A stretch of 47,878 bases of DNA, taken from Patescibacteria group bacterium (GTDB taxonomy: Bacteria > Patescibacteriota > Patescibacteriia > Patescibacteriales > JAQTRU01). Below are positions 25,205 through 47,764 of the stretch, piece by piece. The DNA lies in NCBI GenBank assembly GCA_028716725.1, contig JAQUPG010000012.1, positions 1 to 47,878 of the forward strand. Reading direction: 5' to 3'. A program made the position numbers and the translations under genes. Each line of letters starts with the position of its first letter. The first letter of the stretch is position 1. The notes below the pieces were generated by a model, which worked only from the letters and a program-made list of their open reading frames with translations, had not been told where the DNA came from and searched no databases.

Positions 25205-25251
25205 CTAAGAATGCCACGAATTATGGTATCCGAATTAAATAATCTAAATTT

Positions 25252-47139: not shown

Positions 47140-47154
47140 AAGGAGGTGAGAAGA

Positions 47155-47298
47155 ATGGGTCTGTCAAGTCTAAGGGATTCCAGACATCGTAATTGGCAGA
47201 ATCAGGGCGAGGCAGAACGGAACACGGCAAGGGGCGTCTTGAGGAAAGGCTGCCAAGATCCGAATTCTCTTTTTCTCTCAGAACCCTTCAGGAGATGA
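47155..47298 (+). CDS. Tiny ORF with the strongest Shine-Dalgarno in the window
   Basis: 47 codons from ATG 47155. AGGAGGTGA at 47141-47149 matches the 16S anti-SD almost fully with proper spacing; most genes here have nothing like it. The product (MGLSSLRDSRHRNWQNQGEA and on) is polar and not recognised. Its TGA overlaps the ATG at 47295 of a second ORF in another frame (ATGA), typical of coupled translation. It may be a leader peptide for that ORF or a real small protein. Confidence 0.45.
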   Translation: MGLSSLRDSRHRNWQNQGEAERNTARGVLRKGCQDPNSLFLSEPFRR

Positions 47299-47426
47299 AG
47301 CGCAGAGGGGAAGTAAATGTTGAACCAGCGAAGAAAGGCCGCCTTTCTTTGACATTAAAAGATCTTCACCTTAAGGTGATAACCGACAGAAATATCAGAA
47401 AAATAATCACAGTTTGTAAATTGTAG
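47193..47426 (+). CDS. Small hypothetical ORF overlapping in another frame
   Basis: Up to 77 codons if TTG 47193 starts it, or 43 codons from ATG 47295. A TAA lies immediately before the TTG. The translation (FSFSLRTLQEMKRRGEVNVE, KKGRLSLTLKDLHLKVITDR) looks more like folded protein than the overlapping frame does, and is basic. It could be reached by reinitiation at ATGA from the upstream ORF, or by a -1 frameshift. Terminator follows. No family recognised. Confidence 0.45.
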   Translation: MAESGRGRTEHGKGRLEERLPRSEFSFSLRTLQEMKRRGEVNVEPAKKGRLSLTLKDLHLKVITDRNIRKIITVCKL

Positions 47427-47428
47427 GC

Positions 47429-47463
47429 AGTTGGTTTTATGAATTAATGGGGCCAACTTTTTT
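47429..47463 (+). terminator. Terminator after the tiny ORFs
   Basis: AGTTGG (47429-47434) pairs with CCAACT (47453-47458), extended by T-G wobble pairs (TTTT with GGGG), followed by T6. It insulates the next promoter. Confidence 0.65.
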
Positions 47464-47471
47464 ATTAAAGC

Positions 47472-47500
47472 TTGGCAGAAATCATTATTTCTGCTAGAAT
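47472..47500 (+). promoter_or_regulatory. Promoter of the Asn-leader / tRNA-Asn unit
   Basis: TTGGCA (47472-47477), a 17-nt spacer and TAGAAT (47495-47500). Transcription would start near 47507, about 165 nt before the tRNA, much longer than a simple tRNA leader needs. Confidence 0.7.
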
Positions 47501-47548
47501 GGATATTACTGTGGATAATATGAAATTTAGCTGCAAATATTACGAATT

Positions 47549-47608
47549 ATGGCATTCAAATTAAAACAAGCGAATAATAATAACAATAACAATAATAACT
47601 CGACTTGA
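47549..47608 (+). CDS. Leader peptide with nine consecutive Asn codons
   Basis: 19 residues, MAFKLKQANNNNNNNNNST. Codons 9-17 are all Asn (six AAT, three AAC), so the tract is coding-neutral variation around Asn rather than a perfect triplet repeat. TGA at 47606-47608. It lies between a promoter and a terminator hairpin, and the gene after that is tRNA-Asn. The design matches amino-acid-operon attenuator peptides such as the His-run peptide of his operons. The start lacks a Shine-Dalgarno, as is usual here. A 14-codon ORF at 47520-47564 overlaps its start in another frame. Translation is not shown. Confidence 0.65.
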   Translation: MAFKLKQANNNNNNNNNST

Positions 47609-47609
47609 T

Positions 47610-47651
47610 GGTTGGGGAGGTTAATTATGCGAGAATAGTAATAACCCGACC
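47610..47651 (+). promoter_or_regulatory. Candidate antiterminator stem
   Basis: GGTTGGG (47610-47616), two bases after the leader stop codon, pairs with CCCGACC (47645-47651): seven pairs, one G-U. The right arm takes CCCG from the terminator below. A further alternative pairs GGTTA at 47619-47623 with TAACC at 47642-47646. Confidence 0.6.
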
Positions 47652-47673
47652 AAGAGCCGGGTTTTAAAATTTT
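47643..47673 (+). terminator. Terminator/attenuator before tRNA-Asn
   Basis: AACCCG (47643-47648) pairs with CGGGTT (47658-47663), followed by TT, AAAA and TTTT. Transcripts stopping here would not include the tRNA. CCGGG of the right arm could also pair with the tRNA 5' strand. Confidence 0.6.
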
Positions 47674-47744
47674 CCCGGGTAGTTCAGCGGTAGAACGCCG
47701 CCCTGTTAAGGCGGATGTCGCTGGTTCGAATCCAGCCTCGGGAG
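47673..47744 (+). tRNA. tRNA-Asn (anticodon GTT)
   Basis: 72 nt. Acceptor stem TCCCGGG/CTCGGGA (one G-T pair), D-stem GTTC/GAAC, anticodon stem CCGCC/GGCGG with loop CTGTTAA (anticodon GTT, positions 34-36 of the standard numbering), T-stem GCTGG/CCAGC with loop TTCGAAT. Discriminator G. CCA is not encoded. The cloverleaf is complete. Confidence 0.97.
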
Positions 47745-47764
47745 CATCATTGAACGTTGCAAGG

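Follow-up and report, generated by a model that had tools for sequence, protein, structure and literature searches.

Why should a tRNA-Asn gene be preceded by a short reading frame that spells out its own amino acid nine times in a row? This question is raised by the end of a Patescibacteria contig (C12; all 47,878 nucleotides of it were analyzed and are called the window here), which belongs to a 1.08 Mb draft genome that is 92.5% complete (G000). The tRNA-Asn locus is located near the 3' limit of the contig, where ruvX and recO are followed in order by a terminator-like hairpin, a promoter, the Asn-rich ORF, a second hairpin, and tRNA-Asn(GTT) (Table 1). An initial annotation had read this arrangement as a classical attenuator, and all of the parts it listed (promoter, ORF, antiterminator arm, terminator, and tRNA) were found to be in place in the sequence. 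A stretch between recO and the promoter (47146-47400) resembles a degraded short gene, and a 112-aa ORF occupies the same place in the congener G002 (L208:771-1109).

The promoter at 47472-47500 is the top-scoring sigma-70 match on the plus strand of the last 580 nt, with agreement at 10/12 positions, and its counterparts in the two congeners read TTGGCAG..TAGAAT and TTGGCAG..TAAAAT. The only other plus-strand match in these 580 nt is a weak one inside the ORF (47549-47578). A separate tRNA promoter beyond the terminator, which had been named as a possible objection, has no room in the window because the terminator tail abuts the tRNA. The leader peptide itself is M-A-F-K-L-K-Q-A-N9-S-T-stop, so the reported 19 codons and nine Asn codons (six AAT, three AAC) are correct. 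The GGTTGGG arm is also present just after the stop codon, with one base rather than the claimed two separating it from the TGA. Likewise, the terminator described as AACCCG/CGGGTT with a T-rich tail precedes tRNA-Asn(GTT). Its arms occupy 47643-47648 and 47658-47663, the latter being designated segment C, and the hairpin is a weak one (6 bp) with a broken U tract (U4A4U4 tail). The locus contains a leader ORF, a predicted terminator, a maskable antiterminator arm, and, as judged by consensus matches, one promoter upstream of the leader that would drive both leader and tRNA. Its tRNA is the only tRNA-Asn among the 46 distinct tRNAs resolved in the genome (at 92.5% completeness), and because it is single, control by such an element would form a direct feedback loop.

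Table 1. Features of the leader and tRNA-Asn locus at the 3' end of the window.
Feature	Position	Strand	Basis
Terminator-like hairpin AGTTGG...CCAACT-TTTTTATT, closing the preceding transcription unit	47429..47458	+	sequence scan
Sigma-70-type promoter TTGGCA-17-TAGAAT, extended -10	47472..47500	+	sequence; kept in both congeners
Overlapping out-of-frame ORF, MKFSCKYYELWHSN-stop	47520..47564	+	sequence; comparison with L005
Leader peptide ORF, MAFKLKQANNNNNNNNNST-stop	47549..47608	+	sequence; counterpart in 59/65 same-type tRNA-Asn loci
Nine consecutive Asn codons (sensor codons)	47573..47599	+	sequence
Segment D (AACTCG), pairing with the terminator 3' arm in the antiterminated fold	47597..47602	+	folding model
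Segment A (GGTTGGG), antiterminator 5' arm beside the stop codon, pairing with CCCGACC	47610..47616	+	sequence, folding model
Segment B (CCCGACC), common to antiterminator (A:B) and terminator (B:C)	47645..47651	+	sequence, folding model
Intrinsic terminator AACCCG-9 nt-CGGGTT with tail TTAAAATTTT, abutting the tRNA	47643..47673	+	sequence, folding
tRNA-Asn(GTT)	47673..47745	+	sequence; Rfam tRNA, 70 bits

For the survey of relatives, tRNA-Asn genes were gathered by tRNA similarity alone and their upstream regions were inspected afterwards, with 111 genomes sampled from the order, 381 from the class, and 380 from the phylum. An upstream ORF was scored as a leader if it opened with ATG, was 8-30 codons long, and had three or more Asn residues in ten. 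The tRNA-Asn genes were found to be of two kinds that are distinguished by the D arm, TAGTT versus TAGC. An Asn-rich upstream ORF accompanied 59/65 of the TAGTT type, 1/60 of the TAGC type, and 3/174 other tRNAs, and one further leader was found ahead of a tRNA with the D arm TAATT. Altogether, 60 leaders from about 25 families of a single class were identified, and of the 381 genomes sampled from that class at least 57 have one; the count is a lower bound, as only tRNAs similar to two queries were gathered. The leaders encode 13-27 amino acids with 3 to 9 Asn codons that vary in position and are often interrupted, and the residue following the last Asn is Arg in 23 loci. The link to tRNA-Asn is exclusive. 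Upstream of these tRNAs, no other residue shows a pattern like that of Asn, none of the 174 non-Asn tRNAs was preceded by five or more of its own cognate codons in ten, and no cognate leaders were found at the other tRNAs of the window genome and G238. No leader was detected among about 30 tRNA-Asn genes from other classes in the phylum. Within the order that includes the window genome, most families have a TAGC-type gene that lacks the leader. At least 12 of the leader genomes also possess a TAGC-type tRNA-Asn (for example, directly after an rpoD-like gene in G238), such that in them the gene under attenuation would act as a second, inducible copy. Placement of a tRNA-Asn without an Asn leader directly after an rpoD-like sigma factor gene was seen at L153 (G238), L092, L133, and L089.

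Retention of the Asn run, the loss of which in relatives had been proposed as evidence against attenuation, was also clear at close range. The congener leaders are MKFLTKKL-N9-PT (G002) and MVSEFKKT-N8-LA (G001), each with eight codons ahead of the run and two behind it. Their flanking residues differ and their promoter is shared with the window. Both also have a hairpin of the form CCCGACCAAGA(A)GCCGGG. The frame and the run are intact in G002 despite about 150 nt of extra sequence between terminator and tRNA, and in G001 despite a hairpin-rich insertion ahead of the ORF. In both congeners the tRNA gene is itself followed by a hairpin terminator and is therefore probably monocistronic.

Runs of a single codon next to hairpins could also arise as a repeat or mobile-element artefact, in which case the hairpin would be a processing signal or an old terminator and the tRNA would be expressed constitutively. 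In the window, the ORF indeed opens with codons that are a copy of a dispersed repeat (see below), and hairpin insertions are found near the tRNA in several relatives. Nevertheless, a run of seven Asn codons occurs at a single site in G000, in each congener, and in the relative G238 (overlapping matches being counted as one site), so its presence in the window is not due to chance; the one other site in any genome searched is in G110. Moreover, about 25 families whose DNA differs have kept the run in frame, and the A/B/C complementarity exceeds that of shuffled sequences. The initial annotation had itself raised the concern of a triplet-repeat artefact. The 60 leaders contain 264 AAT and 98 AAC codons in total, and since 52/60 mix the two, the run is not a pure triplet repeat. 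We therefore regard an artefact as very improbable. A second short Asn-run ORF (GTG-AAA-N7-S-A-stop) is located at G110:C40:36411-36431 on the minus strand (L298), with a Shine-Dalgarno sequence and promoter ahead and a GC-rich hairpin behind; no tRNA, tmRNA, or Rfam match was found at this locus.

Whether the position of a ribosome on the leader could determine the choice of hairpin was addressed with folding models. Using a fixed automatic rule, a hairpin with a T tail was found for 55 of the 60 leaders and these were modelled; the other five had none under this rule. The ribosome was assumed to mask the RNA as far as 13 nt downstream of where the A-site codon begins, and controls were made by shuffling the stretch between the stall and the terminator with dinucleotides kept. 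Placing the ribosome at the stop codon gave a mean terminator probability of 0.95, a value that is partly by construction because the terminator choice favours stable hairpins. Stalling at the first Asn codon in the dense run lowered the mean to 0.25 (median 0.02), compared with 0.87 when the stall-terminator stretch was shuffled. This contrast is not by construction (paired Wilcoxon p = 9e-11), and 47/55 loci fell within the lowest 5% of their own shuffles. About 8/55 loci showed little predicted switching, and in models lacking a ribosome the predicted state was variable (mean 0.51). Stalling at the very last Asn codon gave a mean of 0.65, such that termination would be only partly blocked in many relatives and the first and middle codons would be the effective sensors.

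For the window leader, the modelled terminator probability was 0.00 with any Asn codon in the A site, 0.11 at Ser18, 0.66 at Thr19, and 0.87 at the stop codon, so the fold flips just past the last Asn codon. The direction of this change was the same whichever footprint between 9 and 17 nt was assumed, with a stop value of only 0.32 at 9 nt. The antiterminator arm is positioned at a median of -2 to +6 nt from the stop codon in the leaders, and the last Asn codon together with the next one (AACCGN in 19 loci) commonly pairs with the terminator 3' arm to give an outer helix. The models thus predict that the antiterminator and terminator folds, which the initial annotation had described as competing for CCCG, are mutually exclusive and are positioned by the stop codon.

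Taken with the conservation data, these folds make it highly likely that the element is a ribosome-mediated transcription attenuator through which charged tRNA-Asn limits the synthesis of its own tRNA. RNA polymerase would start at the 47472-47500 promoter with a ribosome trailing over the Asn-rich ORF. When Asn-tRNA-Asn is plentiful, the ribosome would proceed to the stop codon and cover segment A, leaving B free to pair with C and causing transcription to end before the tRNA. When Asn-tRNA-Asn is scarce, whether from a shortage of the tRNA or from a lack of charging, the ribosome would instead stall on the Asn codons. Segments A and B (and D and C) would then pair, no terminator would form, and tRNA-Asn would be transcribed. 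Termination in the charged state and relief of it upon starvation would be the expected behavior. Overall, this interpretation, which is that of the initial annotation, was supported wherever the objections listed there could be put to the sequences.

The folding results fix only the position of the ribosome and not the cause of its stalling. The leader could thus be translated and the RNA switch unchanged, with the pause reflecting nascent-chain arrest on poly-Asn, general translation stress, or the queuosine modification of tRNA-Asn, for which tRNA-Asn(GUU) is normally a substrate. We consider this improbable, since the variable position and number of the Asn codons are ill-suited to an arrest motif, and Asn codons always accompany tRNA-Asn and never another tRNA.

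A different concern is what the attenuator controls. Its main product could be asparaginyl-tRNA synthetase, with the element governing a tRNA-Asn and asnS operon and the tRNA-only loci representing reduced versions. Four genomes do have asnS downstream of the leader and tRNA in the same orientation: 43 nt away in G238, roughly 70-80 nt in G364 and G331, and about 0.9 kb in G290, where a second tRNA-Asn-like copy intervenes. In four other genomes (G369, G223, G408, and G280), asnS lies just upstream of the leader. These eight genomes tie the cassette to asparagine charging, and in some relatives the transcript probably takes in asnS as well. However, asnS adjoins only about 8/60 leader loci, and in both congeners a terminator follows the tRNA and asnS is found elsewhere on another contig. 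Furthermore, asnS genes distant from the tRNA lacked an Asn-rich leader in the genomes sampled, and the tRNA-asnS interval of G238 contains a promoter-like TATAAT. The synthetase gene of the window genome is on contig C4 without an Asn leader, leaving asnS behind such a leader in the four relatives and not here. Of 26 genomes tested, asnS scored above the cut-off in 22 and gatB in 23, and the window genome has both. We therefore think it rather unlikely that asnS is the principal target, and favor the tRNA gene itself as the object of control.

Translation of most leaders would begin very close to the predicted 5' end of the transcript. In 42/51 loci the -35 box starts 34-41 nt ahead of the ATG (median 38; where several -35-like matches occurred at one locus, the one nearest 40 nt was chosen), a spacing that implies that the transcript should begin at the ATG or a few bases before it. 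The window differs in that 77 nt separate the -35 box from the start of its Asn ORF, and in that this ORF is overlapped by an out-of-frame one that opens upstream of it and that the initial annotation did not include. The ATG at 47520 of this first ORF corresponds to the leader start in G002, and the ORF ends 16 nt into the Asn ORF. The Asn ORF of the window may therefore be translated by internal initiation or by reinitiation after the first ORF. Its own start codon is supplied by a copy (47540-47563) of a dispersed AT-rich repeat (ACGAATTATGGYATYCRAATTA), which is also found at 25216-25237 and at G000:C13:12351-12391. The translation start is thus the weakest point for the window itself, although not for the family.

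Ribosome-mediated attenuation is well known from amino acid operons with trp, his, leu, thr, ilv, and pheA leaders. Like the trp/his-type elements, the Asn leader has a short ORF of cognate codons, an arm that is covered by a ribosome at the stop codon, and mutually exclusive antiterminator and terminator folds, and readthrough is predicted when the cognate aminoacyl-tRNA is scarce. It differs from them in that it would control the tRNA itself, uses codons for Asn, and has an extra outer helix (D:C) in the antiterminated fold. Aminoacyl-tRNA synthetase genes are attenuated by leader peptides as well, as for pheST. In Streptomyces lividans, synthetase-gene attenuators have been described for the leuS, trpS, alaS, and thrS leaders, and several of the leader peptides in this organism are described as leaderless (PMC8079986). 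The Asn leaders resemble this group in using cognate codons to control the charging machinery, and a leaderless state is likewise predicted for most of them; here, however, the controlled gene would be that of a tRNA, followed within the unit by asnS in only a few relatives. T-box riboswitches, on the other hand, bind uncharged tRNA directly without a leader ORF and often act by antitermination. The Asn leader would similarly sense tRNA charging and control charging or amino acid supply genes, but would do so via a leader ORF. A T-box was rejected as a candidate, with no Rfam T-box match at gathering or relaxed thresholds, and no Rfam family covers the Asn leader.

The general view is that bacterial tRNA genes respond to promoter strength, growth rate, and processing rather than to cognate-codon attenuation, and we know of no tRNA gene controlled in the latter way. 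A report of a tRNA-gene attenuator was not found in the open-licence literature, an absence that is weak evidence. The novelty therefore lies in the target and the autogenous logic: very probably, the locus represents a known mechanism acting on a new kind of target. That it is the first known tRNA gene under ribosome-mediated attenuation, in a form that is autogenous, nearly leaderless, asparagine-specific, and spread over some 25 families of one Patescibacteria class, seems likely to us. In such a circuit, a tRNA would gauge its own charged level via translation and adjust its own transcription, making charged-tRNA homeostasis testable in a simple setting. Concrete examples of regulation are rare in the Patescibacteria, which are tiny and mainly uncultured, with small genomes and a short list of known regulators; the circuit would add one such example and would imply that transcription and translation are closely coupled in these organisms. 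The restriction of the element to tRNA-Asn raises a pointed question about asparagine in such cells.

Several other oddities of tRNA-Asn genes were noted during the survey. In G181 (L070, around 1466-1640), a tRNA-Asn appears to be nested within another: when a 99-nt D-loop insert (stem CCCCGCA.../...TGCGGGG around a tRNA-Asn) is removed, ARAGORN detects a second complete tRNA-Asn(GTT). The outer copy has decayed, or the enclosing stem alone is left, at L259 (G325), L079 (G299), L071 (G279), L132 (G294), and L008 (G110). The second copy in G290 (L206 / L082) is a tandem tRNA-Asn about 50-150 nt past the first and before asnS, with a palindromic hairpin in its D loop. Finally, other-type tRNA-Asn genes in the window's order are often preceded by a promoter and then a small hairpin, CTGCC..GGGCAG-TTTTATTTGA (L010, L015, L016, L029, L031, and L032), which is possibly a second kind of leader.
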